Shown here: one piece after another, positions 3,181 to 61,866 of the stretch
Numbering within the stretch: the stretch's first letter is position 1
Layout: each line of letters starts with the position of its first letter
NCBI GenBank assembly: GCA_011033025.1
Contig: WFMF01000009.1
Coordinates: forward strand, 124,001 to 188,000
Length of the DNA stretch: 64,000 nucleotides
Direction of reading: 5' to 3'
From: Beroe forskalii
Lineage: Eukaryota > Ctenophora > Nuda > Beroida > Beroidae
Position numbers and translations under genes: made by a program
The notes under the pieces: model-generated
Told to the model about the DNA's origin: nothing
Database searches by the model: none
What the model saw: the letters and a program-made list of their open reading frames with translations, nothing else

Positions 3181-6100
3181 GATGCTGACAAAAAGAAGCG
3201 CAACCAAAGAATTGCTGCCAGAATCGCACACACAATCCTAACAATATTTGTTGTCTTTGGGATATCTCTCAATCCAAACAGCAGTTAGTGTGGTATTTCC
3301 ATTTATAAGTTGTGTATGGTTTTGTTGTCATTTACCTGCCATAAAAGATCACATACCAGCTACAATTATGTAGATTTTTCATAAGTGAAGTTTGAGCTTC
3401 GATTCTTATGTTAAATGAATATGAGGTTTTGAAGTTGACAGCACAATGAACATTTCTATGCTTGCCTAAGAATTTGAAGCCAATCTTGTGCCTGACTGAG
3501 ATTTTTGGTTGTATATTTTCAGATACTCAGTGATTTTAATCATTATCATATCAAAATAATGATTATTTGATTAGTTGAGTGTCTGATGAAAGATCTATGA
3601 CGATTTTTTTTCAAAGCCTTTTTATTTCAAACACTAACAAAAGTTACTTTCACAGGTATTTATCAAGCAGTAACAAATGGAAGCAACATCCTAGAGCCTA
3701 TCCTCTTCTCTTCCCTGATAATCTTGGCATTTGTTCTCTATTTTATTGCTTCACTCATGAATCCTGGATTTGTACCTATCATTGATGAGGTAAATGTGGA
3801 TCTACTTGAGTAGGCCATGTCATCGACCAACTCATGAAAATGGTCTCCAAGATTCAAAGGAATTCCAATATAATTCAACTTTCCAAAAATCAATTAGATT
3901 GAAATGTCTCTCATTAATTAGCATCAATTTGTCTGATTCACATTGTTGTACACAGGATGCTGAAGAAGCAGATAACCTCATAACATCAGAAGATGCATTC
4001 TACTGTCGGTGGTGTGACCAGCCCCAACCACTGAGAAGTAAACACTGTAGGGAGTGTAACAGATGTGTGAGGAGGTGGGTATAGTAGGGGCCAGCACCCC
4101 CCTCCCCCTTAGGGGGATATAGTCATGTCCCATGGTATAATAAAACGGGGGATGTAGTATAATACACCCCAACCCCTGAGAAGTAAACACTGTAGGGAGT
4201 GTAACAGATGTGTGAGGAGGTGGGTATAGTAGGGGCCTGCACCCCCCCCCCTTAGGGGGATATAGTCATGTCCCTTGGTATAATACACCCCAAGTCCCAA
4301 CCACTGAGAAGATAATGTTAGTTGAATGAAACAACCAATTGGTATATATCAAACTGAAATGAAATAGAATATTAGGAATCAATAACAAGTATAGGTATTC
4401 GAACATATAAGGCAGCAAACATTATCACAATCAAAATATACTCATGATGAAATAACAACCCTTGTGAATAATATAAACTTACCACTGAAGGTGGATAACT
4501 ACAAAACCCAAAGTAGTTCGATCACTGTTCGTGGTCCTGTTATCACATTTTCATTGCTACAAAGGAGATTGATTAGAAGTTAAACAGATAACACTGTAGG
4601 GAGTGTAACAGATGTGTGAGGGGGTGGGTATAGTAGGGACCTGCCCCCCCCCTCCCCCGTAGGGGGGATATAGTCATGTCCCATGGTATAATAAACCGGG
4701 GGAGGGGGGGTAACCCCAACCACTGAGAAGTAAACACTGTAGGGAGTGTAACAGATGTGTGAGGAGGTGGGTATAGTAGATATAGAACACTATCAAACTT
4801 AAATGCATTTATTCAAGCTGCATCATGCCGCAAGCTGTGTACTGATTTTCCCAGGCTTTGATGCCTCAAAATGTTTCCCAAGGCAATTTTAAAAGGATTT
4901 AAAGTTAAATTCTATCACCTCAGTTAGATGTTATGCTCAATGTGCATTGTGCAGTGAACAATGAGCGTAATAGTTACATTGTACTACATTATAGAACTTA
5001 GATTATTGAACTGAATTGAATTGAATAAGTAGTGACATTGCACCATGGACAATAAGTATAGGTTGGACACCATTACCCCGGGTTTGACCACCACTGCCTC
5101 AGGTTTGACACCACTGCCCCAGGTTTGACACCACTGACCCAGGTTTGACACCACTGCCCCAGGTTTGACACCACTGCCCCAGGTTTGACACCACTGCCCC
5201 AGGTTTGACACCACTGCCCCAGGTTTGTACCTCTGTCCCAGGTTTGACACCACTGTCCCAGGTTTGACACCACTGCCTTTGGGTTTGACACCACTGCCCA
5301 GGTTTGACACCACTGCCCCAGATTTGGCACCACTGCCCCAGAATTTACACCACTGCCCCAGGTTTGACCACCACTGTCCCAGGTTTGACACCACTGCCCC
5401 AGGTTTGACATCACTGCCCCAGGTTTGACACCACTGCCCCAGGTTTGACACCACTGTCCCAGGTTTGACACCACTGCCCCAGGTTTGACACCACTGCCCC
5501 AGGTTTGACACCACTGCCCCAGGTTTGACACCACTGCCCCAGGTTTGACACCACTGCCCCAGGTTTGACACCACTGCCCCAGGTTTGACACCTCTGTCCC
5601 AGGTTTGACACCACTGTCCCAGGTTTGACACCACTGCCCCAGGTTTGACACCACTGCCCAGGTTTGACACCACTGCCCCAGATTTGGCACCACTGCCCCA
5701 GGATTTACACCACTGCCCCAGGTTTGACCACCACTGTCCCAGGTTTGACACCACTGTCCCAGGTTTAACACCACTGCCCCAGGTTTGACACCACTGTCCC
5801 AGGTTTGACACCACTGCCCAGGTTTGACATCACTGCCCCAGGTTTGACACCACTGCCCAAGCTTTGAGACCACTGCCCCAGGTCTGACCACCTGCCCCAG
5901 GATTGACACCAGTGCCCCAGTTTTGACATCACTGCCCCAGGTTTGACATCACTGCCTCAGGTTTGACACCACTGCCTCAGGTTTGACTCCACTGCCTCAG
6001 GTTTGACACCACTGCCCCAGGTTTGACACCACTGCCCCAGGTTTGACACCACTGCCTCAGGTTTGACACCACTGCCCCAGGTTTGACACCACTGCCCAGG

Positions 6101-7397
6101 TTTGACACCACTGCCCAGGTTTGACCACCACTGCCCTTGGCTCGGGAACTGTGTTGGAGAGAGGAATCACCGGTCCTTCCTTTACTTCCTTCTAGTGGAA
6201 GACGTCCTCATTTGCCGCTGCCTTTCCATGGCCTGGTCAGTCTCTAACTTTGTGTCTCTAACTTTCAGACATCGTATATTTTCAACAATGTCGGTGATTT
6301 GAAAATTAACGGGGCGTATATTTTCTATTTTCCGAACGTGAGCAATTCATGGTATTATTTCTCAAATTGCCGTTAAAATGCAGCTGAAAGCCCGGAATGA
6401 GTGGTCTTCCTCACAGCTTGTTTCTAAATTTAGCATTAAAACGAAGGTGTGTAAGTAAATTAGCTTAAAAGCTCTAGTGTATGCCTGCTCAATGTATGAG
6501 AAGGAGTGCAAATGTGACATTATAATGATGATGCCCGACATTTCACGAGTCATGAGCACGATGAAATTTACTGATGAGTACTTCCTGAATACCTTATGAA
6601 TACTTCAATACCACAAATACTAAGGCTACAAAAATTTCTGAAAAATTGCCTTGCATTTCTCATCTGATATTTCTCACTTGAAATTGATTACGTAATATAT
6701 TTGAACGATTTTTAAACAGTGTTTTTAGTTTTCAAAGATTATCACACTTGAATGGCTAGAATATTTCCCTCTTTGATATCTATTTGAAAATGTCTAAGCG
6801 TGTAAGAAAAACTTTAATTCATTAATTTAAGTTTAATCTAAGTTTAATTTGTTTATTTATTATACCTTGACAGGGAATCAGTGAGATCTACTAGCCAGGG
6901 CATACAATGGATCCAGTATAACGGAATATTGCTGCTGTGTGCTGTGGTGCTCATATTCGGAGGTCTGGCAGTCACTTCCCTGCTGGTGTGTCATCTCTAC
7001 CTGATACTCCATGGGATGACAACCTGGGAACACGTCTCTCACAGCAAGGTAAGGGATCAATTTTTGGCCATTTTCAATCCCCCCCTCTTTCCCCCTTGTA
7101 ATCAAAAGTAATTAAAGCCCAACCCCCCTCTCTTGAGAAGAATATTACGTAGTCATGGCTTACTATACCCTAAAAGTCGTCATACTTAGTCGAACAATGG
7201 AAATAAAAACCTTGCCAAAGTTCAATTAAGTGCGACTCAATAATCAAACACTACTAAAAATATTTCAGATAACGTATCTAAAAAGGTGGCCTGAAGACGG
7301 CACTCCCTTCAACTTCGGTTACTGTAAGAACTGTTTTGTATTCTGTTGTTACTGTAGCATCCAAAATTGGGAGAAATACGTCAAATCTTTTACTTGA
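3181..7397 (+). CDS. ZDHHC12: DHHC palmitoyltransferase, ZDHHC12-like (5' end not found)
   Basis: S-acyltransferase that moves palmitate onto cysteines of substrate proteins, expected in Golgi/ER membrane. Exons: 3181-3283, 3656-3789, 3956-4074, 6119 to about 6253, 6874-7048, 7269-7397 (TGA). In order: helix 1, helix 2 ending [10 protein letters not shown], the Cys-rich domain [20 protein letters not shown], then [17 protein letters not shown] with the catalytic DHHC, helix 3, helix 4 ([11 protein letters not shown]), the TTxE-like motif as MTTWEH, and a short Cys-containing tail. The CRWC/PLRxKHCRECxRCVRR pattern and the short length best match ZDHHC12. Introns 1-3, 5 and the stop are phase-consistent. 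The exon 4 donor is weak; GTCTCT after 6253 keeps frame. The initiator exon upstream of 3181 was not identified. Intron 3 carries amplified copies of both flanking exon edges. Confidence 0.85.
4021..4790 (+). repeat. tandem copies of exon 3's 3' edge and splice donor
   Basis: The end of the Cys-rich exon (about 4021-4074) plus the following intron bases recurs near 4165-4240, 4585-4640 and 4710-4782, with a partial copy near 4290-4312. Each fuller copy keeps the codons for [12 protein letters not shown] and the donor context GAGGAG/GTGGGTATAGTAG, followed by a C-run and GGGGGATATAGTCATGTCCC. So an intron holds several near-copies of a coding exon end with a donor. Confidence 0.8.
5070..6118 (+). 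repeat. ~20-bp minisatellite copying the exon 4 acceptor and DHHC codons
   Basis: About 50 units of CCAGGTTTGACACCACTGCC run up to the exon 4 splice acceptor. The exon itself starts CAG/GTTTGACCACCACTGCCC, so every unit is a copy of the acceptor plus the codons for Phe-Asp-His-His-Cys. Units near 5082, 5362 and 5722 keep the full GACCACCACTG spelling. Long antisense open frames over the array arise from the period and are not genes. Confidence 0.9.
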
Positions 7398-12399: not shown

Positions 12400-13706
12400 T
12401 CAGGGTTGCGATTGAGATACGTAAGTGACGTTACTGAGCATTGAGTTCTTCATGTAGAGATACCAGAAAATCTGGAGTATTTCCACCACCACAAACGATA
12501 CGGCCTGAAAATGAGTGAAAACGGTTACTTTGATTGGTTACTAAAATACTCAAGAGTGAAGAGTCACAACAGCTAGGATGGGAATGAATCCCGCCGTGTT
12601 CGAAGTTGAAGTTGAACAACGCCCTTGTTCAAACTTGCATCAGGTATCCCATGAGAGTGATTCGAATGACTATGAAACTTAATATGCATGCAGAACCCTT
12701 ACCTGAGTACTCAAGAGATTTAAGTTTAAACGAAATAACTGATACGAGATAATTGTAATCAGAAGCTTTCGAATATCTTGTGATAATCGTTGTCCGCTTA
12801 CCTGAGTAGCTATTCCTGCGTACACGAGGTAGGGTCGGTTTTTGAGGGAGCCGAAGTACCAGAGAACACTGCCCAGAGGGATGATGAACAGCATCACGAC
12901 CAACATCGTCTTGTTCAGCGCTCCCGTGTCTGTGGGGGTGAAATTATGGTTTAATGTCAGGGGGTGTACGACACTAAACATGACGACATTTGGACACTTT
13001 CTCCTTTTCCTAACCCAGACCTTTGCTCGGAGTTGAAATATTGCGAGATGAAGTGTCGTGAGATCATATGTCGAGAGATGAAATTTCCGGTAGATTTGAA
13101 CTTCAATTGTAATGAAATTAAAAGATTTAAAAAAGAAGTATCGAAAATAGACATGAGCTTGGGGCATGACTCCAAACCAGATTTCAACAAAATTTGCCAT
13201 TACATTTGTAAGCAGGAGAGTTCTGACCAGCTTCTCTGATCACGATAGTTTCTGTTCGCACGGGTACTGTTGAAGGAGAAAATAGGTTTTCAATAAGTTT
13301 TCAAGAAATTTGGTTAAACCTCATAACCCCGATAAACTGCACCCTCATTTTCCACCCCCCCCCCCCCAGTAAACTAATAAAGTACAAATTTCTCATCAGA
13401 TACCAGTACTAATTTCGAATTTAATTTTCCAAGAATTGACTCAGTACCACCTGCTGTGTGTGGGCTAGGGTGCGCTGCGAGTGGGCTAGGGTGCGCTGCA
13501 AGTGGGCTAGGGTGGACTGCAAGGGGTACCATCTGGACAGGTGACACGTGGACTGGTGAGATTGGGGCAGGGAGAGGTTTCTCCGGAGTGTAGTCCTGAG
13601 TGGTGGCAGGGAGAGTGGGCGCAGTGGCTGCCGTGTAGGTTATCTGTCCGAGGGGGGCGGTGGGGGGCTCCGAGTAGGGTGGGGGAGGTTCAGGCATCTG
13701 GCTCAT
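12400..13706 (-). CDS. small two-helix membrane protein, VMA21-like, with proline-rich N-terminus
   Basis: Three phase-consistent exons: 13706-13451, 12929-12802, 12504-12400, about 162 residues. Residues 1-85 are Pro-rich (starts MSQMPEPPPPYSEPP, contains three copies near HPSPLAA). Then comes NKTMLVVMLFIIPLGSVLWY, a loop, YLVYAGIATQAVSFVVVEI and LQIFWYLYMKN. The two-helix hairpin, the spacing and the IPLG / YAGIA stretches resemble VMA21, the ER chaperone for V-ATPase Vo assembly, which is normally about 100 residues and lacks a Pro-rich extension. The usual C-terminal lysine retrieval signal is absent; the end here is QSQP. The fold is well supported and the VMA21 identity is tentative. 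An additional small exon between exons 1 and 2 cannot be excluded. Confidence 0.55.
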
Positions 13707-13925
13707 AGCTAACTGGGAATTTACGGGTTAAACTTAATACTAATAGGGTTGTGACTGGGGGGCAGGCATCTGGCTCATAGCTAACTGGGAATTTACGGGT
13801 TAAACTCAATAGGGTTGTGACTGGGGGGCAGGCATCTGACTCATGGCTAGCTGGGGGTGAACGGGTTGATAAACTTAATATGGTTGTGACTGGGGGGTGG
13901 GGGCAGGCATCCGGCTCATAGCAAA
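13690..13925 (-). repeat. tandem copies of the start-codon region of the two-helix gene
   Basis: A ~72-bp unit, read on the minus strand, includes AGCTATGAGCCAGATGCC, the initiator and codons 1-5. It is present at the real start (about 13706) and again near 13770, 13842 and 13915 with growing divergence. Several upstream ATGs in the same context therefore exist in the presumptive 5' leader. Confidence 0.7.
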
Positions 13926-14311: not shown

Positions 14312-15499
14312 TCAGAGTTTTTGAAATAAATCCCCCTTCAAGAAAGCAGCATGGTCCCTCTTGGCTGCATCAAACTGAGCTTTGAAGTGTTGCAGATATT
14401 CGTTGACTTTGGACAGGTCCTGCTTGAATTTGTCCAAGTTTTGTGCCAGAGCGTCCATGCAGGAAGTTCTGAAAATAGAGAGGTCACGTGTTTTTGGTTA
14501 ATTTCTAGCTATTTTTATGACATATGAGGCAAATCATACCTTTCTATGAAAACTCGATTGAAACTGAAAACAAACAAACCAATAATATTTACTTACTCTT
14601 CCGCCAAGTTGATAGTCCTGTCATTGTCCTTATCACTTTGGGCACTGGATCCGGACAGCTGTATGTCATCAAATTCCTGAGTGTTCTCCCCCTCTTCCTG
14701 GTACTTCTCAATATCCTCCTCTTCCTGCACGTCATTCTTAACATCGTCCTCTTCCTGCCCCTGCTGCACATTCTTAACATTCTCTTCTCCCTTCCTCGCC
14801 TCCTCAGTCTCACCTTCTTTCTTTTCTTTCTTAACCTCCTCTCTCCCTTCTCACTCTCTCCCTTGCTCATCAGCCCTTTCTTTTCTTCCTCCTCTTTAGT
14901 TGCTTGACTTCCTGAAGAAACGCTGGTGGACGCCCCCACAGTTCCCTTCTCACCCAACAGGGAACAGGGAATGATTGTGATCTCTCCTCCTCCTCCTCCT
15001 TTTACTGGCATCTCCAACTCACGAAGCACAATCTGATTCGTTGAAGAGGCTCCACTCGTGATTTCTCCAACAAACTCAACCTCGGAATCGACAATTGCAG
15101 CTTCTTTTAGGCGACTTGACGAACCTGCAGAGAAATGTGCATTTTTACACACTGTTCAATGCATTAATTACGAACCTTTGCCAGTGAAATATTCCCCAAA
15201 AAATTCCCCAAGAAAGTTAAGGGATTTTAACAAACCGTTTTTGACGCAGTCTCCTGACGGTGCTGTATCAGCAACTTTCTGCTTCTTGGTGCCCCCTGGA
15301 GAATGTAGTGTAATAAAGCACAGGAATCAAACGAGAATACAGGATGAGCTTTGAAATAATTCATGGTTACATAAAAATTTTCCACATTTTGAGGACAAGA
15401 AATAACTTTATCATTTGAAATTAGCACATCGACAGGTTTAGGTTTCATTATCTCACCTGTTGATTTGCTAGAACCCTTTCTTCTCTTGGTTTTAGCCAT
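14312..15499 (-). CDS. basic-start, acidic coiled-coil protein of unknown function
   Basis: Not recognised. Exons 15499-15457, 15295-15236, 15124-14597 and 14468-14312 have good GT-AG sites. The N-terminus is very basic (MAKTKRRKGSSKSTGG, then TKKQK), suggesting nuclear localisation. The middle has SEVEFVGEITSG and a five-Gly run, then a Lys/Glu-rich stretch. The C-terminus is a helical segment from SCMDALAQNLDKFKQDL to FLKGDLFQKL. Oddity: exon 3 is open in one frame from its acceptor to about 14850, while the frame that joins the last exon (EEDDVKNDVQEEEDIEKY) opens only after about 14850. Either the sequence has a one- or two-base indel in a purine-rich run near 14830-14870, or a small unseen intron lies there. 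Exon ends are well supported, function is not. Confidence 0.55.
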
Positions 15500-16063: not shown

Positions 16064-16225
16064 TCTTCAGCCCAGTTCTGCTGGCTCAAGTTCAGCCCAG
16101 TTGTGCTGGCTTCAAGTTCAGCCCAGTTCTGCTGCTTCAACTTCAGCCCATTTGTGCTCGATTCAGCCCTGGCCCCTGAGCCAAGCTGTGCTTCAAGTTC
16201 ACGCAGTTGTGCTCGTTGAAGTGAA
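16064..16225 (-). repeat. ~26-bp tandem repeat overlapping the receptor stop codon
   Basis: On the minus strand about six diverged units of AGCACAACTGGGCTGAACTT run from the last codons of the receptor (16225-16199) into the 3' flank. The stop TGA at 16201-16199 lies inside the first unit, so later units repeat the coding end. Confidence 0.6.
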
Positions 16226-17380
16226 ATAGGAGTAGGAGAATTGCACCTGGACACAGGCCCATTTGTGAGCGCTGCAAACTGATTTAGAGATAACGTTAAA
16301 CGGATACAAAAAGAAACCCAGGTACTTCTTTTTCATGGAACTGTTCCTGAGAATCATGATGAGCTGAAAGCCGAAAGCGTTGATGAGGGGCATGGTTGAG
16401 ACGGCTAGGATTGTCATGGTGCGGTAGGTGTGGAGAGACTCTGCCCTCGCCGCGTGGATGCCGTAATTGAGAATACAGAAGAGGTCACTCACCACGTCCA
16501 GGATATTGATGAGGATGATGGTTACGGTCATCTTGTGGGATTCTCTGAAGAGATTAGCCGCAGCTTCGCTCACTCTCAGAGATTTGCGGAGGTAGTAGAT
16601 CTGAATGGGGATGCATATCAGGGTGATGAGACTGGGAACGCCCTGGATGGCAACCTGGATAGGGGCTCCCACGTATACCACGAAGTGATCCACGGTTTTG
16701 TAGGAGAAAAACTTGACAGAAACCAAGATAAATTCCACGAGATCGGGCAAGGAGAGGTGCATTCGGAGCAAACTGCAGATCGTGTAGAAATGGTGCTGGT
16801 ACGCCATCAAGTCGAACTTGAAAGCAAAGCACAGTATCGCTGTGAACTGGACAGCAAACCATAGCGATGTCCCACTGACTATAACGACCAACACACTGGT
16901 CCTCCATTGAGACGCTGAGAAAGGCTCTGCGATGGTAACAGTCCGGTAAACTGTCAGGACTACGTTGTAGAACGTACTGCAGGTCCAGCCCAGGATGGAA
17001 ACGGACGGAAGGAGGGACACAACTCCGGACAGGAGCGGGGAACTGTCCTGGATCAACTGCTGGAGCGGACAGGAGAAAACCAGCACCACCCGACCCATCT
17101 CCCCCACCGCAATGAGCATGTCAGCGCTGGCTATGAGGAGAAAGAGGAGGGGGATCAGCTTCTGCCGCTGGGGGTAGTACCCGGAAATAACCAGGAAGTT
17201 CTGGAGAATCACTCCTGTGCAGAGGAAGAGGTTGAAGTAGCCAACTCGTCGGTAATCGGAGAGTTTTACCCAATCCGCTGGGCGGTTGTCAGAGGTGATG
17301 AGAGGTACGGGGGCTATGCTGTTAGCTAGTGATACGTAGAGGGGTATGATGTTAGGAGTTAATGATGAGAGGTACGGGGG
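16199..17380 (-). CDS. seven-transmembrane receptor, rhodopsin-like GPCR, peptide-receptor type
   Basis: A single large exon encodes seven hydrophobic segments, starting with GYFNLFLCTGVILQNFLVIS (TM1) and ending with PLINAFGFQLIMIL (TM7) followed by a basic turn (SSMKKKYLGFF). After TM3 the motif is VYRTVTIAEPF instead of DRY, and TM7 lacks a clear NPxxY. TM2 carries ASADMLIA. Such features occur in lineage-specific invertebrate GPCRs, for example FMRFamide-receptor-like groups; the ligand cannot be told. The frame is open up to about 17380 without an ATG, so the N-terminus must come from an unseen upstream exon. Candidate acceptors CTAACAG and GCATAG lie in a duplicated segment. A tiny acceptor-donor pair near 18118-18146 could be an upstream exon, but this is weak. 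Confidence 0.75.
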   Translation of the reverse strand, partial: PPYLSSLTPNIIPLYVSLANSIAPVPLITSDNRPADWVKLSDYRRVGYFNLFLCTGVILQNFLVISGYYPQRQKLIPLLFLLIASADMLIAVGEMGRVVLVFSCPLQQLIQDSSPLLSGVVSLLPSVSILGWTCSTFYNVVLTVYRTVTIAEPFSASQWRTSVLVVIVSGTSLWFAVQFTAILCFAFKFDLMAYQHHFYTICSLLRMHLSLPDLVEFILVSVKFFSYKTVDHFVVYVGAPIQVAIQGVPSLITLICIPIQIYYLRKSLRVSEAAANLFRESHKMTVTIILINILDVVSDLFCILNYGIHAARAESLHTYRTMTILAVSTMPLINAFGFQLIMILRNSSMKKKYLGFFLYPFNVISKSVCSAHKWACVQVQFSYSYFTSTSTTA

Positions 17381-17475
17381 CTATGCTGTTAGCTAGTGAT
17401 ACGTTCATATCCCTGTATAGGGGAGTAGAGGGGTATGATGTTAGGAGTTATGCTGTTAGCTAGTGATATTTTCCC
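17297..17475 (-). repeat. two to three copies of the receptor exon's 5' edge
   Basis: The segment ACGGGGGCTATGCTGTTAGC plus TAGTGATACGT appears at about 17311-17341 and 17374-17404, with a shorter third copy at about 17449-17467. The segment GGGGTATGATGTTAGGAGTTA occurs at 17341 and 17429. The first copy is coding (minus strand), the others are upstream. Confidence 0.65.
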
Positions 17476-30200: not shown

Positions 30201-30983
30201 TTTCATTCAGGCAGGTGGTCACTGCACTTGACGGTGCTATACCCTGGTACCAGGGGTGACTGCTGGGGGCCTACCTCATAAAAAGCTCTCGCAATTTAAA
30301 CACCCAGCTGAGGTAGGTATTGGACTGAAGATGCCTGCACACCACTCATCTTGGTGTGACTCACTTGGATCCTGCTGCTCTCCACATTGGATTACCGAAA
30401 GGGATCATGTTGGTGTTCAAAGTACGGAGTTGGAGAAAAGTCTTGCAGATTGATGTCTTGAAGAAAGATTTCTTTTAATTCAAAAATGTTTTAACCCTGA
30501 TTTTCAGGAGAAGCATCTCTCAAGATGAAGTATTGGATCAGGATGCATGCCACTTCTCATTAATTTTATTAATATTGCAGCGTAAAAGGACACAAATAAC
30601 CCGGATCCATCACGGTCTCTACTTCTCTTCACTAAGTGTTTTGCTTAATTTCTTGATGCTTGGGTACAAACAAGACCAAAGAGCAAGTTTCAGTTTCATT
30701 CAGGCAGGTTGTCACTGCACTTGACGATGCTATACCCTGGTACCAGGAGGTGACTGCTGGGGGCCTACCTCATAAAAAGCTCTCGCAATTTAAACACCCC
30801 CAAAGCTGAGGTAGGTATTGGACTGAAGATGCCTGCACACCACTCATCTTGGTGTGACTCACTTGGATCCTGCTGCTCTCCACATTGGATTACCGAAAGG
30901 GATCATGTTGGTGTTCAAGTACGGAGTTGGAGAAAAGTCTTGCAGATTGATGTCTTGAAGAAAGATTTCTTTTTAATTCAAAA
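27219..30983. repeat. 502-bp tandem array, about 7.5 near-identical copies
   Basis: Units start at CTTGACGGTGCTATACCCTG near 27219, 27722, 28222, 28725, 29220, 29719, 30228 and 30720; the last is partial. Each starts with a GGTACC-centred palindrome (CCCTGGTACCAGGG) and contains TTAATTTTATTAAT and ACCCGGATCCATCCACCGGT. Copies differ by few changes, mostly one- to few-base indels. Short open frames recur (starting MPAHHSSWCDSLGSCC), but indels break them in some copies and no domain is seen, so they are not called genes. No tRNA, 5S or snRNA was recognised inside. Confidence 0.9.
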
Positions 30984-40856: not shown

Positions 40857-40965
40857 GTTTTGTCAACGCAAAAAGAGTGAAGACCGAGGACGAGAAACAA
40901 CAATCGAAAAGTATAAAACACAAACAAATCAACCAAGTATCAAGCAAATCGAATTTAAACGCCGT

Positions 40966-50500: not shown

Positions 50501-53500
50501 ATGGAGACGGTGAACCAGAGCAGCCGACCAGCAGAGTTTCATCTCCTCGGAGGGGATGGGGACAGTCATGGGGTCGTTGTGTACGATGATTTCGCGGGAT
50601 ACGGGACCATCTGCCGGGATTACAGCATGGGACCGGCTGAAGTGGACGCCATCTGTCACCACTTTGGATACGACCACGGGATTGCAGTAGATATCCACGA
50701 CTACGTTGATCGACAGAAGAAGGGAGTGAATTACTACGACTTTGACATGCCACACTTTGCCGTTTCGAAGATGCATTGCCATGAAAATGCCTCCAACGTT
50801 GCCAACCATAGCCACTGCCACTTTGATCCGTACCCCCACCACTCCCCCTGCTTCGACGGCGAACAGCTAGCTGTCCGATGTGCCGACATCCCTTGGGAAT
50901 TCGAAGTCGAGGAAATGCGAGTAAACGTGATGACCATGCCAACTGGATACGTGAAGGGAAAAGTGGAGTGCGACGTGCATGCCCACAAGTACGGCATGGG
51001 TCTCGACATGGGAAGCGAAGTGGGGGCGTACCTTCTCGATGTAGTGGACGAGGACGACATAGAGTACATCAAAGAGCTGAAGTGGAACAAGAAACGGGAG
51101 ACGTTCATGGGGAAGATCAAGACACGGGATTACGCCGAACACAACTGCTGGATGTGCTATGTGGAGCTGGAGGAGCAGGACGACTTCTTCGCTTTTGACG
51201 TGGAGGATTCGTGTGGTGGCATGGATTTCATGGCATTGAAGATGAAGGCAAAGAGGAGTGTCTACCTCAGGAAACTTGGAGAGCTCGGTGAATAGAGGAG
51301 GAGGATGAGGCAGTGATGAGGAGTGAAGAAGAACATTTGGTGGATGAAGAAGTTGCGGAAAAGTAAATCTTCAATGATTTGCTCTGCAGAAAGAGCCGAT
51401 GATGATTGCTGCAATTCGTGGACTTGAATACATGAACTAAAACGCGGACTATAATGTAGAATGTAGATGGACCTCTTTAGACTGTAGCAGGAACCTAACA
51501 GATTAAAAACATTTTACGACGAAATAGTGTGTACACTGTACACGAAGATACAATTTGTAATACCTATGTACAATTTACTGTATATCATGTTTATTCTTCT
51601 TAGAATTGAACGAGATATCATGGAAACTAGACAACTGATCTTAGAAACGATCAGCTTCTTCCCGAAGGGAGAAAAATATTTATAATATTTATCGCTGTCT
51701 TGAAAAACGTTCTATATTTGATAATTTTCCAAAAATCTTTGTAATTTATTCTGACCAGCTTTCCTATTTTAATAAGTTCACTATTATAAATCATGATGAC
51801 AAAAACGAGAAATGCGCGGAAGAAATTCTTGAATCTCTGTCATAATTTCTTGACAACTGTTAGTGGCGAGGTATTTGATACTCTTCAGACAGCTTAGTTT
51901 TCCCAGAAAAAGCATTCTACTTTTCATCTGAAAAGCGCCGTCAGGAAAAGTCTTTGCTTCTGAATAGCAGTGTCAGAAAGTGTCCTTACCTCTAAATAGT
52001 GTTGTCAGAAAGTGTCCCTTACCTCTAAATAGTGTTTTCAGAAAGTGTCCCTACTGTCCTTTACCTCTGAATAACGTTGTCAGGAAATGGCCCTGAAGGA
52101 GCTCGTGAAACTCCGTCCTCTTCTGACTCTCTGCCTCCCGTTCAGCTTCCACCTTGTCAATGATCTGCTGTCCCCGGGTCTTGTAGGACTTGCTGAAACT
52201 ACTCCTTCGAGCAGCTTCACCTGAGTGACGTCATTGATTAAGTTCGTCGAATTAAATTAAGTTTGCTACTTTTGACAAATGATAATGATCTCACTCACGT
52301 TTGAAATGGACGTATTTCCATGCGATACGGCAGCAAAATTCATTAAAATGTTATGGCAAACCCAAAAGTTATTCACATTTTAGCATTGTACAATGAAGTA
52401 TCTGTACTCACCCAAGCACTTGAAGTAGAGGGTAGGTGACACGTTGATTTGCTCTAGAATAGCGAACCGTCGCTTAACCCTAACCAGGTTCTCTGACACC
52501 TGAAAACGACTAATAATTTCAGAGCTTTAAACCAATTTTAAAAACCATTCTTCAATCGATATTCATTGGGCTGGCACTGCGCTAATCTTTGACAGATTCC
52601 GCTTTAGCTCCAAAATAAAATCAACCGGTACAAAAATCATTTCAAATGAGTACCATATTGTATATTACCATGGTAAGGCGACCGTCGCAGTTCCAGATGG
52701 CTTTCTGACAGTGGGTAACCCAGTTCAGTCTGATCAGCAGGTTCTGTGAAAGCTCCTGGGGGACAGTTAACAGTTAGCATATGCTTTTTGTACAAATGAG
52801 TTGCGGAATCGTCTCGCAGTCGAAGTTTTCCAGTAGTTTCTTTCACGCGCGGGTTTAATCTTTACTTGCCCCGTGTTACCTTATTTTTCACGCGCGGCGC
52901 GTATTGCGCAATAGCGCTTCTCCGCAGGGGATCTGAAAAACGCTTCTCGCATGCAGAACATTTTGCAGGATGCAAATATCTGCTTCTCACCCCTTTGGCA
53001 GCAAATCATGCGCAAACATTGCATAGGAAACAAGGTTCTTCTCACCCCTTTGGCAGCAGAGAACTTGTTGGCAAACTCATTCATCGTTCTGTTGTTGGAA
53101 TGTAGTCTCTTCAGCTGATCTCTGTGAGCTATCAGCAGATCAGCTAACACTGAAACGTCTCCCTGCACCATGAAACTCTCTTCCTAGGAGGGAAAGATAT
53201 TTACTATATTCGATACACTGGAAAATACATCAAACTAATTGATTAGATATTGAAATATCTAATTCCAGCGTCATAACATGCATTTTGGCCTTGAAAAAAA
53301 TGTTTAAAACTGAATTACTGAAGATGATTGATATACAGCTGCGTCATTTATAAACCTACCTACAGACTTACAGACTTGTATCTGATGACTGAATACGTAC
53401 CTGGCTACAGATTGTCTTGGCATTAGCAGCTTGCTCCTCACAGATCCGCTCCGTTTGTAGGAGCAGAGATTGGAGTTGGTGAAGACGTTCCTCTAGTCCC

Positions 53501-56500
53501 CGGATATCTCTCATACCTGGACAGAAGAATCATCGTCCATTCGGGGACTTTCATATCATACACCCATCAATCGAAAATGATCCGAACAAAAAGACAAGTC
53601 GAAGTGATCAAAAAAATGAAATCCTGGACCAAGAATGTGGTTTCGCCTCTGTCCCATACCGACTGGAATATCCAAGTTTGCCTTTTTATGTTTTTAATAA
53701 AGAAGGAGTCTTCAATATTATGAACCTGGAGCTTGGAGGGACTGTTTGACCTTATCAATCTCCTCCTGGACACGAGGTAGGAACGAAGTGTTGATCTGAT
53801 CGAGTGCCCGAGTACACTGGAGAACGAGGGAGTGGAGAGAGTTCTGCGAGTCCTGCGCTTCTATCCAGTGCAGCAGGGAGATGAACTCACTCTGGGAAAC
53901 AAGGGAGTGAAGATGAGTATCCCTTAGGATTTTTCTAACTCAGAGACGAGAAAAGTTCAGGGAAGGGATGAGGAAATTTTAGGCTTTGGGAGGGGATTGG
54001 ATAAAGATCGTAGGAAATGGGAAATTCTAACAGGGTTGGGTGCCTAAGGAGGGGGTGGGTGTTTTCAGTTTTGGGGAGGAGTAGGAGTTACCCGAAACCT
54101 CCCAGACTATTTCAGACTGAAACCCTCCTGTTCCCCTAATACCTTGTTATTGTTGAATGTTTGAAGTGAAGGAGACTGCTGTGTCTCTCCACTCCCCCTG
54201 TTCCCCTTACCTTGTTATTGTTGAACGTCTGAAGTGAAGAAGACTGCTGTGTCTCTCCACTCCCCCTGGCCCTCTTACCTTGTTGTTGTTAAATGTTTGA
54301 AGAGAAGGAGACTGTTGTGTATCCCCACTCCCCCTGTTCCCCTTACCTTGTTATTGTTGAAGGTTTGAAGGGAAGGAGACTGCTGTGTCTCCCCACTCCC
54401 CCTGTTCCTCTAACCTTGGTATTGTTGAATGTTTGAAGGGAAGGAGACTGCTGTAACTCCCCTATTCCTTACCTTGTTGTTGTTGAATGTTTGAAGGGAA
54501 GGAGACTGCTGGGTATCCCCACTCCCCCTGTTCCCCTTACCTTGTTATTGTTGAAGGTTTGAAGGGAAGGAGACTGCTGTGTCTCCCCACTCCCCCTGTT
54601 CCTCTTACCTTGTTATTGTTGAATGTTTGAAGGGAAGGAGACTGCTGTGTTTCCCCACTCCCCCTGTTCCCCTTACCTTGTTATTGTTGAATGTTTGAAG
54701 GGAAGGACACTGCTGTGTCTCCCCACTCCCCCCTACTCCCCTTACCTTGTTATTGTTGAAGGTTTGAAGGGATGGAGACTGCTGTGTTTCCTCACTCCCC
54801 CTGTTCCTCTAACCTTGTTATTGTTGAATGTTTGAAGGGAAGGAGACTGCTGGGTATCCCCACTCCCCCTGTTCCCCTTACCTTGTTATTGTTGAAGGTT
54901 TGAAGGGAAGGAGACTGCTGTGTCTCCCCACTCCCCCTGTTCCTCTTACCTTGTTATTGTTGAATGTTTGAAGGGAAGGAGACTGCTGTGTTTCCCCACT
55001 CCCCCTGTTCCCCTATCTTGTTATTGTTGAATGTTTGAAGGGAAGGAGACTGCTGTGTCTCCCCACTCCCCCCTACTCCCCTTACCTTGTTATTGTTGAA
55101 GGTTTGAAGGGATGGAGACTGCTGTGTTTCCTCACTCCCCCTGTTCCTCTAACCTTGTTATTGTTGAAGGTTTGAAGGGATGGAGACTGCTGTGTTTCCT
55201 CACTCCCCCTGTTCCTCTAACCTTGTTATTGTTGAATGTTTGAAGGGAAGGAGACTGCTGTGTCTCCCCACTCCCCCTGTTCCCCTTACCTTGTTATTGT
55301 TGAAGGTTTGAAGGGATGGAGACTGCTGTGTTTCCTCACTCCCCCTGTTCTTCTAACCTTGCTATTGTTGAATGTTTGAAGGGAAGGAGACTGCTGTGTC
55401 TCCCCACTCCCCTGTTCCTCTTACCTTGTTGTTGTTGAATGTCTGAAGAGAGGGAGACTGCTGTGTCTCCCCACTCCCCCTGTTCCCCTTACCTTGTTAT
55501 TGTTGAATGTTTGAAGGGAAGGAGACTGCTGTGTTTCCCCACTCCCACCTATTCCTCTTACCTTGTGGTTGTTGAAGGTTTGAAGGGATGGAGACTGCTG
55601 TGTTTCCCCACTCCCACCTATTCCTCTTACCTTGTGGTTGTTGAAGTTTTGAAGGGAGGGAGACTGCTTTGTCTCCCCACTCCCCCTGTTCCCCTTACCT
55701 TGTTATTGTTGAAGGTTTGAAGGGAGGGAGATTGCTGTGTCTCCCCACTCCACCTATTCCCCTTACCGTGTTATTGTTGAATGTTTGAAGGGAAGGAGAC
55801 TGCTGTGTTTCCCCACTCCCACCTATTCCCCTTACCTTGTTATTGTTGAATGTTTGAAGTGAAGGAGACTGCTGTGTTTCCCCACTCCCAGGACTTCCTC
55901 CTGGGTCCGGCTCTCTCATACTCTCCGTGATCCCCAGTCCGTGGTCTTTTGAACACCTTGTTAGGGGTTAAGTGACGGAAGGGGATTAAGTGATGTAAGG
56001 GGTTAAGTGACGAGAGTCTGATCATAAAATAGGAACATATTATAATGTGTGATACGAGGGAAGCCACAGGATTTCAACGCTACATCGTGCAGAAGACGTG
56101 AACGAAAAAAAAATTGAGGGGGGGGGAGGAGCTGTGACTTCAGCTTTTAGATAATTGAAACAAAAGCAATTGGGGAGAGAGAAAGCTAAGTAATGTCGCA
56201 AAAACAATAAAACTTGAAACAGATTATATTAATTATAGGGATAAAACCCAATAATTATTCAAACGTCCTCAAAACCTGAAAAAACATGTTATTCCTGCTT
56301 TCTGGCCAATTCTCATGTGGCAATACGAGGGAAACCACAGGGTTATAATGCTACATGATGCATTGGAGGTCCTTTTCTAGCTTCTATAGTCCATAATCTA
56401 TGAAGCATCATATTTTGGGGGGATGGTGTGGAATTATCAGTAAACTATTATCATTATTATCATATCAGCTAATGAAAATCGAAAAGAATTAAATGGGGGG

Positions 56501-59500
56501 TGAAAGTTGTTTCCCCAGCTTTAGATAAATGTACAGAATTAAATGGGGGGGGTGAAAGCTTTTTCCCCAACTTTATATGAATGTACAGAATTAAATGGGG
56601 GGGGGGGGAAGAAAGCTGTTTCCCAGCTTTATATGAATGTACAGAATTAAATGGGGGGGAGAAAGCTGTTTCCCCACCTTTTAGATAAATGTACCAAATT
56701 AAATGGGGGGGGGGGGGTTAAGCTGTTTCCCCAGCTTTTAGATGAATGTACAGAATTTAATGGGGGGGGAAGAAAGCTATGCCGTAGTATGGGCATTGGG
56801 CAAACTCGAAGCTGTCGAAACCTGAAGAAGAATGTTATTTCTGCTTTCTGGGTAACTTCCTGAAACCTGATGGGTTTTATGATGCCTGTTTAATCAATCA
56901 TAGCATGTAATAATACCGGATTTAGTTATAATCACCGACCATTGCCATGAAAAACTCTCGGAATTGTCTGTTCCCAATAACAGACTAAAGGATTTAGAGA
57001 ATTCATTCAGGAATTTAAGATTGAGCCAAGAATTTTTGCAACAATCGCAATTCGCTTCCGGGGCTCTCTACTTGCTACATTCCATTATCAAATATCAAAA
57101 AACCTCTTAAAAGTAAAGTCGGACCAACAAATTCAGCCTATTTCGTGTGTAATTATGTACACTGTACACGATATGTCAATGTATGGGACGGTCTGCTTTT
57201 GCCGCTTGATTGCCCCTGGCTAATGTAATTGTTCAAACATTTCCACGAACATAAAAAGATTATCTATTGAATTATTCGAATTTAATAAAATTACAGTAGG
57301 GAGAGTAATTCGCATGTTCTTGAAAAATACCCGGCGGTTTAGTGTTTGGTAAAGAATCTTTTGAGAGCCGGATCTTGTACTTTTTGAAGTAGAATAGCAT
57401 ATCTGCATCGTGTATTGTTTGATTTGAGTGCCTCTGTGAAATGAATTGGTCAGTGGAAGAGGATAAAACGCGGAAGTCGCCAGAAAAGCCATCTTTTGTC
57501 TCCATGCTTAGGTATTTGCTAATTGACTTGACAAAATATCTCGTTCACAGCGTATTAAGAATACAGCAACGTTTTGAATAATTAAGTAAAGCCAAAGGCC
57601 ATCGGTAACCAACCGCGTTTTGCCTGTTTGTTGTCCTATCATTCTCGCAGTGAACGACGGATGACCGATCAAAGCACGACCGACCCCTCGCTCTAACTCT
57701 GATTGGCCAATCTCAATCTACTCCGCAAAATACTCAAGAGATAATTTCAACTTTGCAGTCAATATGATTATCGAACATGTGCCGCAGAAATTGACTTTCT
57801 TGCGTTTTTGTAGTTCTTCATTCCCAATTTACAAATTCCCAGGGTCCAGTTTGACTCCGATTCCCGCTCCCGAACCTCCTCCTTCAACTCTGCTATCTCG
57901 GGTACCTCAGAGTCGGAGCGACGGGACGCCTTCTCCAGTGACGAGGAAATCGGTAAGGGTAATTTTATAATTACTAATGAATTATTCCTTAAAGAAGATG
58001 GATTCAATGATATTTTCTGAATAAATGAGCCAACTGTCAATCAATGTACTGGAATTATCTGATCTGTGTGCATTGCCTTGCTTTTTAATGACTTATTAAC
58101 GTCAATCCAAATATGCGGCTTAGTTCTGTTGCACCTTGTGTCGACATTGCTGACGATAACTCAAACAATTCAGGCAGTGTCGAGACAGCAGCGCTCATCG
58201 AATCCCGGAAACAGCTCCGTCTTGGTTCCGTCAACTCGCTCCAACGCTCTCTTCGTCATGTGATCAACTACAACGTTCTAGTGGCGGGAGAGTCCCGGTT
58301 AGGGAAATCCACCATCATCGAGCAGCTGCTCCAGAGCGAACGAACCGCTCCCCGGTCCAAGTTCGCTCCACTCGACAGCGCTTCATCACCTACATCCGAG
58401 GTTTTTACCTGTCGGAGCGAGTCAGTGGTCCGGACTATGATGCTGAAACACAAACGGTCGAAGTTGGTGGTTTCGCTGATCGAAACGCCCGGGTTTGGTC
58501 CGAGATCGATGGGGTCGGACTGTTGGGAGCCTGTGTTTGAGGAGATAGAAGGACGGTTGAGTAAGTATATGGGGGAGGAGAATAATATAAACCGGAGAGT
58601 AGTGGTGGATCACCGGATCCACTGTTGTATCTACTTCCTGTCTCCTTTCGCTTCCGGGTTACGCCCTGTGGATGTGGAGTTTATGGGACGGGCTTGCAAG
58701 GTGGTGAATCTCATTCCTGTTATAGCCAAAGTAGACACGCTTACGACCAAGGAGTGCAAGCGACTGAAGGGTAAAATCCTGGAGGATTGTGCTGAGCATA
58801 ATATCACGCTATTCCACCCTGAAATGTTTGATCTGGATGACTACATCGCACCTCCCTACACTGTGATAGGAGGAGAAAACACCGCTTCTGACGTGACGTC
58901 ATCAGGGAATGAAGAAGGGGAGAGTCCGCTGCCGGTGGTAGGACGGCAGTACCCGTGGGGATTTGCAGAGGTCACTAATGAGGAACACTGCGATTACGTT
59001 ACCCTCTACGACATCATCATGCGATCATGCATCGAGGATTTTATGGAGTACACGGATTCAGTCCTTTACGAGAGTTACAGGATTAACCATATGAAGTCCC
59101 TGGATGTGAACTCTGCGATAGAGCTGATCGACCCCTTGAAGAAACACCCCTCACCTACTCTTAATGCTCCTGTTGAGGAGGTTCTGACGGAGAAGGAAAG
59201 GTTGTTAAGGGAGAAGCAGTTTGAGTTGGAAAGATTGAGGAAGCAGGTGGAGCAGATTAGTCAGAGAATGTCGGAGGGGGTTCCGACTGGTCCAGCGATC
59301 AAAGAGGAGGAGGAAGGAGAAAACGGGGAGATGGGAAAGAATCAGGAGTCTCAAATTGTGGAAAAATCAGAGGAACATGAGTCTCAAATTATGGAAAAGG
59401 AGCAGAATCAAGAGTCTCAAGTTGGGGATAACAGGAAGGAGGGTGAGGGAGCAACAGAGGAGAAGCGTGAAGATGAGGAAGAAAGGCAGGAAGTTTTCTC

Positions 59501-61866
59501 TCTTGAAGACACCTCACTCCAGCCTGTCCCTCGTTTTGCTGTAGAGGATGAGAGGAAAGTTCCAGATGTAAAGAAGGAACATGGTACTCCGAAACAGGGC
59601 CGAAGTGAAGATGCTGGCAAACGAAGAACGAAGATTCAAGATGAAGACAGAAAACAGGCGGCCAGTCGTGGAGATGAGAAGAAACCCGAGGCATTTCAAA
59701 GTGAAGATAGGAAGAAGAAGGTGAATAGGTCGTGGCGATGGAAGAAGAAGGAAGATAGCAAAACGAAGAAGGATGAGGCTAAGAAAAAGGGATCAGGTAA
59801 CGGGAGTGACAAAATGAAGAAGGGTGAAGACAAGAAAAGAGGGTCAGGTAATGAGAATGAGGGGTTGAAGAAAGGTGAAGATAAGAAGAACGTTTCAACT
59901 TCTTCATCTAAGAAGAAGGGGTCAGATCAGGAGCAGACAGCCATTGACAATGAGTATGGGGATGTGTTTCACATGCCAGAGTCTACGCTGTGATGATGTT
60001 AAAACTCCGAGGCTACGACAAGTTTCAACTATCGATATTTGCAGTGCTTCATGATTATATTTATTTCATTGATTAAATCAAGTAAATGTCCATTGAAATT
60101 GTTGGAGTAAATCTCCAATTGTATTAAATTGAGGTATTGGGCAATGAGTATTACAACAGAATTGGACTATAAATTTATCTTATTAAGCGACCAGTGAGTT
60201 CTATAAAGATATAGAGGTTTTTAATGTTATGAGCTGGTTTATTATTGTTTTATGAGTTTTCAAAAATCTGTCTTATTTACTTGTTCGTTAAACTTTATTA
60301 AAATTCGATGACGTTGAAAAGCACGCTGAATTGCAATCTGCTTTACCTGATGCTGTCAATCATCTTGGTTTGCTTCATATGCTCCAGTATGCCCGAGGTA
60401 AGAGGAATTTGGGAGAGAATCTTGACATCCTCATCAAACTGGATCAACATGCCACCTGTCATGAGAATAGGATATACTGCAGTTTGGGGGAGAAAACTAA
60501 GAGTGATTACATAATAATGACTTATAGTGGTAAATTAATCAAGCATTAAAATGGTCAAATCATAACGTCTCGATATACCTAAAACTCCATAAATCGATAA
60601 TGCACCGAACCACTTACTGTACTTATCTCTGTACTTGAGAAAAGAGTCGTAGAGTTCATGGAATAGCTCAACTCTCTTCTCAAACCCCACTGTTACTTGG
60701 TCCAGGTTACTGATCACTGCTGCCCAACCCTTCCTTTGCAGCTCCTGGTCTTCTACCTAAAGAGAAGATTGTTAAATTGGCAAAATGTTAATCGGACCAG
60801 AAAACGTTCGTCCAATAAATGAAGAATAGTGCGAGCTTTTTTGTGTCTTACGAATGAGGGCAAAGGTGGGTCTAACGAGGGGAGGATATCGTAAATTCCC
60901 AAGTTCCAACCCACCAGTTGCTTGGTTCTGACTAGTATCTCCTCCGCGTAGGAATGGTAATCTCTTGCCAGGTCAGCCCCCAGTTTCAGAGTCTCGCACG
61001 CCTGCCCGTCCTGCATATACCTCTCCAGACGTGCCTGCGGGGGAATAGGTACTAAAAACATGTAACGGGCAAAGCCCTCGAAACATCTCAATTAAAGACG
61101 CGGCTTAAAATATGAACTAAAATTTTCGTCATAATTTCCCTTTTCGCTCGCTCAGGGCACAGATTCAATGCAAGTTAATCGGGCAGATGAATTTTTGCCT
61201 TTTCACTTCACCTGTAAGTTCTTGTCATGAGGAAGGGACACATAAGCTGGTTGTACCACATGACACTCGATATTACTCTTGCTGAACAAGAAGATGGGTT
61301 TGTCCGGGGACACGGGAGACACGTAGTTGTAGAGGTGCTGGGTGGCGTCCAGAGAACGTCCGTCGAATGTCAGCAGGACCTGGGGAGATATTTAAAAGTG
61401 TATTTCGATAGGTTAAGGTGAAATTGTTTTTCTTAATTGGGGATTCATCATTTTGAGACTGTGAGCTGTAAAGGGGAAAGTACGTCCTTTTTCCTCTAAA
61501 AATACATGCCACACAACAACCTAGCTTCACACTGACACCACTACACTCTGACGCGACTTTACTCAGACACCACTTCATTCTGACACCATCCCATCCCGAC
61601 ACCACTCTACTCTAACACCACTTCACTCTGACACCACTTCACCCTGACACCACTTCACTCTGTCACCACTTCCCTCTGACACCACTTTACACTGACACCA
61701 CTTCACGCTGACACCACTTTGCACTTCCCTCGGCCCTCCGTACCTGTTTGTCAAGGGGTATATCTGCCAAGTCTGATAGGGCTATCTGCAAGTCCTGGAC
61801 CCGCTTTGAGATCATGCTGGCATCAAGGGAGAAGAGCTTCCCAGCATCCACCAAGAATACGTTCAT
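41515..61866 (-). CDS. RB1CC1: RB1CC1/FIP200-like autophagy scaffold (3' end unresolved)
   Basis: FIP200 is the scaffold of the ULK1 autophagy-initiation complex. Exons: 61866-61744, 61379-61212, 61034-60852, 60756-60618, 60455-60347, 55956-55836, 53891-53726, 53516-53401, 53183-53046, 52755-52669, 52499-52412, 52220-52065, 43031 to about 42941, 42692-42618, 42506-42254, 42054-41874, 41615-41515. Phases agree throughout; only the exon 13 donor is weak. Matches to the animal protein, in order: MNVFLVDAGKLFSLDAS, KPIFLFSKSNIECH, KGWAAVISNLDQ, LHWIEAQDSQNSLHSLV, GLEERLHQLQSLL, LADLLIAHRDQL, ELSQNLLIRLNW, SFSKSYK, and FLTTLFRG joined across a 9-kb intron to LDSFPTQF. The last four exons are coiled coil. 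About 764 residues are visible against about 1590 in human, and the C-terminal Claw domain was not seen. The frame after 41515 could stop shortly (about 41470), or a terminal exon may lie near 41412-41341. Three genes are nested in introns 5 and 12 on the plus strand. Confidence 0.85.
43166..43233. mobile_element. hairpin element (ATTGACCAATCAGCAAGCGA arms)
   Basis: Arms 43166-43194 and 43205-43233 are near-perfect inverted repeats with an 11-base loop, followed by CCAAGACTATTTCGGG. A diverged copy of arm, loop position and flank is at 62678-62750, so this is a dispersed family. Confidence 0.6.
43250..43510. repeat. ~30-bp minisatellite in FIP200 intron 12
   Basis: About nine units of TACTGGTGTCAGGGATACCT plus GGTCTGACG. 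It abuts the hairpin element on its left. No copied exon edge was found here. Confidence 0.8.
43511..44993. other. no gene recognised
   Basis: Part of intron 12 of the FIP200-like gene, upstream of the nested glycosyltransferase. AT-rich, short open frames only. Confidence 0.45.
44994..45182 (+). CDS. 62-residue upstream open frame abutting the glycosyltransferase
   Basis: A hydrophobic open frame (contains IAFIVFSSFSFLYFYNYIF) ends in TAA directly before the ATG at 45183 and is in the same frame. It may be a translated upstream ORF or chance. CACAATAACAG just before the stop could also be a splice acceptor for a 5' untranslated exon. Low certainty. Confidence 0.25.
   Translation: MIQNLVRNAIAFIVFSSFSFLYFYNYIFIAGYFLYFGETDFDFRSILEITNKPFSSNDTITG
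45183..46957 (+). CDS. B4GALNT-like glycosyltransferase with N-terminal ricin-type lectin domain
   Basis: Type II Golgi enzyme expected to transfer N-acetylgalactosamine or a similar sugar to a glycan or glycolipid. Exons 45183-45896 and 46025-46957 join in phase 0 (AFLK/DRKALL), 548 residues. Residues about 12-32 form the signal anchor. About 115-225 look like a ricin-B beta-trefoil half (LRLVPGWCNPRAAQSFTF, GLCAGQDLS, QCLTA). The catalytic part has VTIVVKTGGRAPLVQEL, ISEGRNTGLAMVKTKYAGF, the metal-binding FFDDDAVF, NFFLAKTSDIRDAGGW and a closing EHRDIFLRL, all as in the GM2/GD2-synthase group (B4GALNT1/2). Family members usually lack an N-terminal lectin unit. Several NxT/S sites fit a lumenal domain. 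It is nested in a FIP200 intron on the opposite strand. Confidence 0.8.
46958..48895. other. no gene recognised
   Basis: Spacer between the two nested plus-strand genes, 3' flank of the glycosyltransferase and 5' flank of the protease. AT-rich, no repeat of note. Confidence 0.5.
48896..51295 (+). CDS. secreted trypsin-like protease fused to an SRCR domain
   Basis: Exons: 48896-48898 (ATG only), 49068-49184, 49475-49808, 49981-50208, 50400-51295, about 526 residues, all in phase. The signal peptide MGYGTLVATLLVIGSVLAQ is split after its Met. The trypsin domain holds HYCGGALIDPRIVITAAHC (catalytic His), NDIALVIL (Asp) and GDSGGPLF (Ser). The S1 position that is Asp in trypsin falls on His (GHSWFGDSGG), and the Cys pairs 136-201 and 191-220 are missing. 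The activation site is not the usual R/IVGG; KIYYGND takes its place. It is followed by an SRCR-like domain (VVVYDDFAGYGTICRDYS, VDAICHHFGYDHG, QLAVRCAD) with a His-rich loop (HSHCHFDPYPHHSPC), then about 135 residues unlike anything I recognise (WMCYVELEEQDDFFAFDV). Likely extracellular, defence or digestion. Nested in a FIP200 intron. Confidence 0.85.
49190..49265. repeat. ~20-bp tandem repeat in protease intron 2
   Basis: About four units of GGTGTCACACTCTACATT start just after the exon 2 donor. They do not copy the exon. Confidence 0.6.
51296..51929. other. 3' flank of the protease gene
   Basis: Purine-rich then AT-rich sequence, probably 3' untranslated at its start. No gene recognised. 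Confidence 0.45.
51930..52090 (-). repeat. copies of FIP200 exon 12's 3' edge with donor
   Basis: The real exon end, minus strand TGACAACGTTATTCAGAG/GTAAAGG, is followed by diverged copies TGAAAACACTATTTAGAG/GTAAGGG and TGACAACACTATTTAGAG/GTAAGG, and a more distant one (TGACACTGCTATTCAGAAGC). Period about 35-40. The copies retain usable-looking donors. Confidence 0.75.
52975..53062 (-). repeat. copy of FIP200 exon 9's 3' edge with donor
   Basis: The exon end TGCTGCCAAAGGG/GTGAGAAG (minus strand, at 53046) recurs about 60 bases further into the intron as TGCTGCCAAAGGGGTGAGAA (about 52983-53003). Confidence 0.7.
54141..55835 (-). repeat. ~68-bp minisatellite copying FIP200 exon 6's 3' edge and donor, about 26 units
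   Basis: Exon 6 ends ACACAGCAGTCTCCTTCACT then TCAAACATTCAACAATAACAAG/GTAAGGGG (minus strand, donor after 55836). This end plus about 25 intron bases repeats down to 54141 roughly every 68 bases. Almost every unit keeps the codons for QQSPSLQTFNNNK and a GTAAG or GTTAG donor. CAGCAG inside each unit could act as an acceptor and would give 33-base in-frame mini-exons. Confidence 0.9.
55960..57640. other. FIP200 intron 5 with G-rich minisatellite, no gene
   Basis: At about 56490-56790, five units of AGAATTAAATGGGGGGGG with GAAAGCTGTTTCCCCAGC repeat at about 60-65 bp. A diverged duplicated phrase (CACAGG..T.AACGCTACAT) occurs near 56065 and 56336. The remainder is AT-rich up to the septin 5' region. 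Confidence 0.55.
57702..57711. promoter_or_regulatory. CCAAT-box palindrome upstream of the septin
   Basis: ATTGGCCAAT holds a CCAAT box on both strands, about 130 bases before the first septin exon seen. A role in its promoter is inference only. Confidence 0.3.
57843..59993 (+). CDS. septin GTPase with long Lys/Glu-rich tail
   Basis: Septins are GTP-binding filament proteins at cell cortex and division sites. Main exon 58174-59993 plus an upstream exon 57843-57952 (VQFDSDSRSRTSSFNS; joins EEIG/SVETAAL in phase). The initiator exon before 57843 was not found. Alternatively translation starts at the ATG at 58113, which is open straight into the main exon (MRLSSVAPCVDIADD). Motifs: N-terminal RHVINYNVLVAGESRLGKST (G1; Arg where septins usually have Gly), VSLIETPGFG (G3), FLSPFASGLRPVDVEFM, NLIPVIAKVDTLT (G4) and the septin-unique region. 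After about residue 350 comes a coiled-coil start (LREKQFELERLRKQVEQIS), then about 230 residues of Lys/Glu repeats. Nested in FIP200 intron 5, opposite strand. Confidence 0.88.
59994..60346. other. septin 3' flank
   Basis: AT-rich, TTATT-containing, probably 3' untranslated. No other feature. Confidence 0.4.
61540..61735. repeat. ~16-bp minisatellite in FIP200 intron 1
   Basis: About twelve units of CTGACACCACTTCACT, ending a few bases from the exon 1 donor (minus strand, at 61744). The unit does not copy the exon. Confidence 0.8.

Follow-up and report, generated by a model that had tools for sequence, protein, structure and literature searches.

Minisatellite-like tandem copies of intron-exon boundaries, called mirages, have been described in the globin, Adh, troponin C, and PGBD5 genes of lancelets (PMC3087553, PMC3902484), with the PGBD5 and troponin C cases contributed by the second of these reports. 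As portrayed in the portions of both papers on which we draw, mirages occur on either side of a boundary, carry AG or GT in many copies, and have units of ~10 to 160 bp. Their interiors are homogenized except at the cluster ends, as reported for the BflGb6 array, their lengths are unstable, and RNA evidence indicates that splicing is normal (PMC3087553, PMC3902484).

A related event is known from the potato RdRp gene, in which, according to the part of the report considered here, an intron was gained through a tandem duplication crossing an intron-exon boundary (PMC4974935). That case resembles the arrays described below in that a boundary-crossing tandem duplication copies splice signals, but here the copies stay within the old intron. 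Ordinary intronic minisatellites or VNTRs are generally known to have similar unit sizes, divergence, and block turnover, and the arrays here differ from them only in having coding bases and a splice site within the unit.

We analyzed a 64-kb stretch of a ctenophore genome, hereafter the window, in which repeats at the exon edges of unrelated genes had been predicted from the sequence. As with the lancelet mirages, to the extent that these are characterized in the sources above, tandem arrays have units that span exon-intron boundaries (at 5/47 edges in the window and 3/108 edges of kinesin genes elsewhere), many units retain AG or GT, and a homogenized interior flanked by ends in an older state is clear in one array and weaker in another. 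Canestro 2002 is said to be among the sources on lancelet mirages. The original prediction knew of no described system of this type, a statement that the lancelet cases contradict. Unlike those cephalochordate examples as presented in their sources, the present ones come from a ctenophore, comprise several cases with a frequency estimate, and are known from one DNA assembly. Our literature search, in which subscription journals were thinly covered, listed no paper that evidently describes minisatellite arrays across exon boundaries in organisms other than lancelets, which is no proof of absence. What is new is the lineage, the multiple cases, and the measured frequency, and the phenomenon itself is of a known kind.

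We consider it very probable that these arrays are mirages in the sense of ordinary minisatellites that arose when the initial duplication chanced to include an exon-intron border, with the edge serving as their source rather than their target.

Samples, gene models, and copy test

The window (C1024:124001-188000) lies in a 216-Mb assembly of 1134 contigs. Sample A is the window plus 10 kb on each side (84 kb), and sample B is 200 kb of another contig. Hand-made gene models in the window comprise 29 exons, of which 25 were used, yielding 47 splice edges; the donor of the coiled-coil exon at 14596-15124 is one base off in its model. The receptor exon, the proline-rich start exon, YIPF exon 6, and the first exon of the coiled-coil gene were left aside. 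Two of these four bear arrays named in the original prediction, and five of their edges were added in a second count (52 edges in the window, 160 in total). To score an edge, a near copy of the 24 bases centered on it was sought within 1.5 kb, with a main threshold of no more than five mismatches. The same 24-mer test was run at fixed distances into the exon and into the intron.

Because edges not chosen for their repeats were wanted, exons coding for kinesin motor domains were collected with a Pfam profile. This set grew from 41 edges to 62 under looser criteria and then, with more loci, to 108 edges from 19 loci and 71 profile matches (71/120 profile rows and 108/142 possible edges). Exon ends were used only when a credible splice site lay no more than 20 bases away. 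Three further stretches (C664:53296-54018, C671:28466-28909, and C212:75325-75834) were excluded because their frames contain several stops. Locus L036 (C291:171000-175100, seven rows) was excluded as a large-scale tandem duplication: a kinesin stretch of ~0.8-1.2 kb with complete exons and introns is repeated there at least four times. Because profile match and splice score determined where kinesin edges were set, some of them may sit a few bases off, and the genes chosen are compact ones, such that long introns may be under-sampled.

Automated edge prediction proved less useful. A gene finder trained on the window identified few exons in the first ten kinesin loci, and profile-guided edges were used instead. 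In C669:300001-500000 it produced 49 strong predicted edges, and copies were found for 6/49 at the edge, for 8/49 at a point 50 bases into the "exon", and for 6 to 12/49 within the intron. Because copies occur as often within these "exons", many of them are probably derived from repeats, and these edges do not enter the final count.

Arrays at exon edges in the window

Repeats as described were found at every site named by the original prediction, in several unrelated genes (Table 1).

Table 1. Exons and tandem arrays in the window, in window positions
Feature	Position	Strand	Evidence
ZDHHC-type palmitoyltransferase exon 3	3956..4074	+	open frame, splice sites, Pfam DHHC match of join
Four copies of ZDHHC exon 3 end, donor, and intron start	within 4022..4798	+	alignment
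20-bp minisatellite, ~52 units, reaching into ZDHHC exon 4	5060..6136	+	repeat finding, unit alignment
ZDHHC exon 4 (FDHHCPW active site)	6119..6235	+	open frame, splice sites, Pfam match of join
66-72-bp array over likely acceptor and start codon of proline-rich frame (predicted gene)	13691..13925	-	repeat finding
25-26-bp array at stop codon of receptor-like frame	16064..16225	-	repeat finding
Three 65-67-bp units at 5' end of receptor-like frame, exon edge position uncertain	17297..17475	-	repeat finding
FIP200 exon 12 end and donor, 3-4 diverged units of ~31-33 bp	51949..52087	-	alignment
FIP200 exon 9 end and donor, two copies of 20-base core	52983..53057	-	alignment
FIP200 exon 6 end and donor array, 68-bp unit, 26 units	54127..55889	-	repeat finding, unit alignment
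FIP200 exon 6 (linker exon, predicted)	55836..55956	-	open frame, donor, acceptor
16-bp array in FIP200 intron 1, edge not included (counter-example)	61525..61719	-	repeat finding

The joined exons of the ZDHHC gene match the Pfam DHHC profile (E 1e-36), and two of its edges bear arrays. At the 3' edge of exon 3, the donor and the ~53 coding bases before it are the source of three further copies downstream. The four copies (4022-4106, 4167-4251, 4571-4655, and 4714-4798) are spaced 145, 404, and 143 bp from start to start, and the second spacing departs from ~145 bp because some 260 extra A+T-rich bases, perhaps an insertion, lie between copies at 4310-4580. At the 5' edge of exon 4, the array unit consists of the acceptor and the first exon bases, cag|GTTTGAC(C)ACCACTGCCC, whose exon part holds codons of the DHHC active site. 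The A and G columns of the splice signal stand at 0.96 and 0.98 across the 52 units. The spelling of the exon is retained by unit 1, but also by units 15 and 33.

The joined exons of the FIP200 gene match Pfam ATG17_like (E 3.8e-11) and PDB chains of RB1CC1/FIP200 (RB1-inducible coiled-coil protein 1; E 2.4e-45), the latter over two stretches of the join (residues 2-212 and 263-507). Exon 6 is located between the two, and is therefore predicted from its open frame and splice sites. The array at its end has a donor GT in 25/26 units and a homogenized interior, and the exon's spelling persists in units 1, 25, and 26 of the 26. The 3' edge of exon 9 has a single extra copy of 20 edge bases, 55 bp downstream, and is thus a two-copy repeat only, while the 3' edge of exon 12 is scored only when at least five mismatches are permitted. 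The array in intron 1 begins ~24 bases beyond the donor of exon 1, which ends at 61744, and copies no edge. A septin frame (58092-59993, +; Pfam E 2.3e-66) is located between FIP200 exons 5 and 6 on the other strand.

At the remaining named sites, the repeats themselves cover 13691-13897 (start codon), 16066-16150 (stop codon), and 17299-17404 (receptor edge). The receptor edge gave a negative result at its modeled start and a positive one at two other candidate AG sites. Two more groups of repeats were observed in the window. At 37290-40870 (-), four adjacent frames contain 45-bp in-frame coding repeats and share a cysteine/histidine end resembling a zinc finger. At 27160-31000, there are up to eight tandem units of ~500 bp, with a 43-bp part identical in all eight.

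The retention of splice signals raises the question of whether selection maintains the extra sites, perhaps for alternative splicing or as decoys, which would make the arrays functional. Such selection would agree with the nearly universal donor GT of the FIP200 exon 6 units, with the preservation of the 20-base core at FIP200 exon 9 next to a diverged remainder, and with the slightly better conservation of exon-derived than intron-derived unit parts (0.957 versus 0.917 for ZDHHC; 0.945 versus 0.869 for FIP200 exon 6). However, these nominal differences are small, and the intron parts contain runs of G or C that slip easily. Moreover, units of 20, 55, 58, 68, and 145 bp have lengths that cannot be divided by three (unlike 33, 36, 39, 57, and 66), so most copies would shift the reading frame if used. 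We regard selective maintenance as improbable.

Recurrence at kinesin edges

Arrays that copy exon edges recur outside the window, as clear examples are present at 3/108 kinesin edges, all within motor-domain sequence. In one gene (C647, L042), the acceptor and codons for GGNSMTLM form nine 39-bp units upstream of the exon, largely in an alternating two-unit pattern. In another (C212, L043), the end of an exon coding for SKLTRLLQ is repeated with its donor in ~8 downstream units of 28-36 bp. In the third (C164, L034), the acceptor and ~40 exon bases form 57-58-bp units upstream, and because this array reaches past the limit of the piece analyzed, its extent is a lower bound. We take SKLTRLLQ and GGNSMTLM to be kinesin hallmarks, well conserved stretches of the motor domain. 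Because edges carry DHHC codons or conserved kinesin motor sequence, the exon must be the source and the array the copy.

Frequency of copies at edges and in introns

Local copies of the edge, including the splice site, are present at eight of the 155 edges (5/47 in the window and 3/108 in kinesin genes); the five in the window belong to ZDHHC exons 3 and 4 and FIP200 exons 6, 9, and 12. They comprise five donors and three acceptors, such that both 5' and 3' exon boundaries are affected. These copies are not a product of chance. In sample A, a local copy was found for 14.6%, 17.9%, and 20.0% of positions with up to three, five, and six mismatches, respectively, compared with 0%, 0.04%, and 0.2% in one block-shuffled version of the same DNA. 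Arrays identified by TRF cover ~11% of both sample A and sample B, and with that much of the sampled DNA in tandem repeats, edges should often be struck by them.

The decisive question is whether edges are struck more often than their surroundings. On the exon side of the same 155 edges, copies were found for 0/155 at -60 and 4/155 at -20. On the intron side, the counts were 13/155 at +50, 15/155 at +100, 16/148 at +200, and 12/132 at +500. Local copies therefore become more frequent on passing from the exon into the intron, and the edge itself does not stand out as a peak. When edges were shifted by 40-300 bases into their own introns (4000 draws), a mean of 14.66 copies (sd 2.29) was obtained against the eight observed, with a probability of 1.000 that the shifted count is at least the observed one and 0.002 that it is at most the observed one. 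The corresponding comparisons are 5/47 with a shifted mean of 5.17 in the window and 3/108 with 9.50 in the kinesin set.

Other choices gave a similar result. Across the 155 edges, six copies compare with 10.9 after shifting when up to three mismatches are allowed, and ten with 17.0 when six are allowed (5/108 edges for kinesins at this threshold). Adding the five window edges, the start-codon array among them, yields 6/52 versus 5.93 in the window and 9/160 versus 15.48 overall, which leaves the picture unchanged. A plain Fisher test of the edge against +100 (8/155 versus 15/155) is not significant (P 0.19), and for this reason our claim is an absence of enrichment rather than a proven deficit. 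The counts exclude a marked excess at edges and are compatible with equality of edge and intron.

The original prediction had suggested that a process acting at exon-intron borders might seed the arrays, such as replication slippage linked to transcription or R-loops; splice-linked slippage would be a process of the same type. Arrays at both acceptors and donors of unrelated genes gave this idea its appeal, as did an edge rate that is higher in the window than in kinesin genes (Fisher P 0.056), although the window had been picked for its arrays. The shifted controls are nearly double the observed count, arrays are present also at a stop codon and off the edge in FIP200 intron 1, and no enrichment over mid-intron controls is seen across the 155 edges, which is the outcome that the prediction itself had set against its proposal. 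Because edge arrays are no commoner than intron ones, an edge-seeking process is unneeded, and we judge it very unlikely. The term "exon-edge-templated" holds as a description of the arrays, but neither the 155- nor the 160-edge count shows a preference for edges. That the arrays are an assembly artefact of collapsed or duplicated reads is barely credible, because even though tandem arrays are generally error-prone in assemblies, the units differ by ~10% in ordered blocks and the pattern recurs on other contigs.

Origin and growth of the arrays

Ordinary minisatellite birth in a repeat-rich genome, tolerated at edges, is our best reading of these results, and "retention because exon copies are tolerated", which the original prediction offered as another possibility, fits them. 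An array would begin with the duplication of some tens to ~150 bp, anywhere in non-coding or border DNA, through replication slippage or unequal exchange. When an edge lies within the duplicated segment, geometry dictates that one outer copy completes the exon and the extra copies land in the intron. The arrays seem to run away from the exon because of this geometry, and the process needs no direction of its own. The protein would remain unchanged provided that the proper splice site is still chosen, as it presumably is, while duplications wholly within exons would be removed by selection.

Subsequent growth appears to occur through turnover within the array rather than by repeated copying from the exon. 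In the FIP200 exon 6 array, a 300-nt stretch is 95% identical to a stretch five units away, and identity is highest at lag 5 (0.906 versus 0.878-0.898 for other lags). The ZDHHC exon 4 array likewise has an identity maximum at lag 18 (0.928; 52 units compared), and the two-unit alternation of the C647 kinesin array is a third such sign. Templated growth, wherein every copy is made anew from the exon, was rejected because of this block structure.

The finding of mirages in another animal lineage, at a rate no higher than that of the surrounding intronic tandem repeats, suggests that repeat-rich introns suffice for their formation and that special machinery is not required. The presence of many mirages in one genome also makes it possible to test how the spliceosome finds the correct site when dozens of nearly identical ones are present, and how frequently these copies turn into new introns. 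One could go further and propose that the arrays provide a lasting reservoir of duplicated splice sites for new introns or exon extensions, that edge arrays are so common (8/155, or 3/108 in the less biased set) that the genome total would reach thousands, and that exon parts are better kept since the extra sites take part in splicing. We consider this extended proposal unlikely.

Other observations in the assembly

One contig of 2.8 kb carries a mitochondrial-type COX1 frame that contains four in-frame TGA codons and stays open with TGA translated as Trp. A search of this contig by ARAGORN under the bacterial code revealed no tRNA; to our knowledge, ctenophore mitochondria lack tRNA genes.

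Frames L023 (C229, 861 aa) and L024 (C395, 858 aa) code for ionotropic glutamate receptors and are without introns. For one ionotropic glutamate receptor frame of this assembly, the top PDB match is ML032222a (195 bits, E 1.5e-56), presumably a protein of the ctenophore Mnemiopsis, followed by kainate receptors with 192 bits over a much longer chain. For a second receptor frame, kainate receptors rank first in PDB (236 bits), followed by ML032222a (216 bits).
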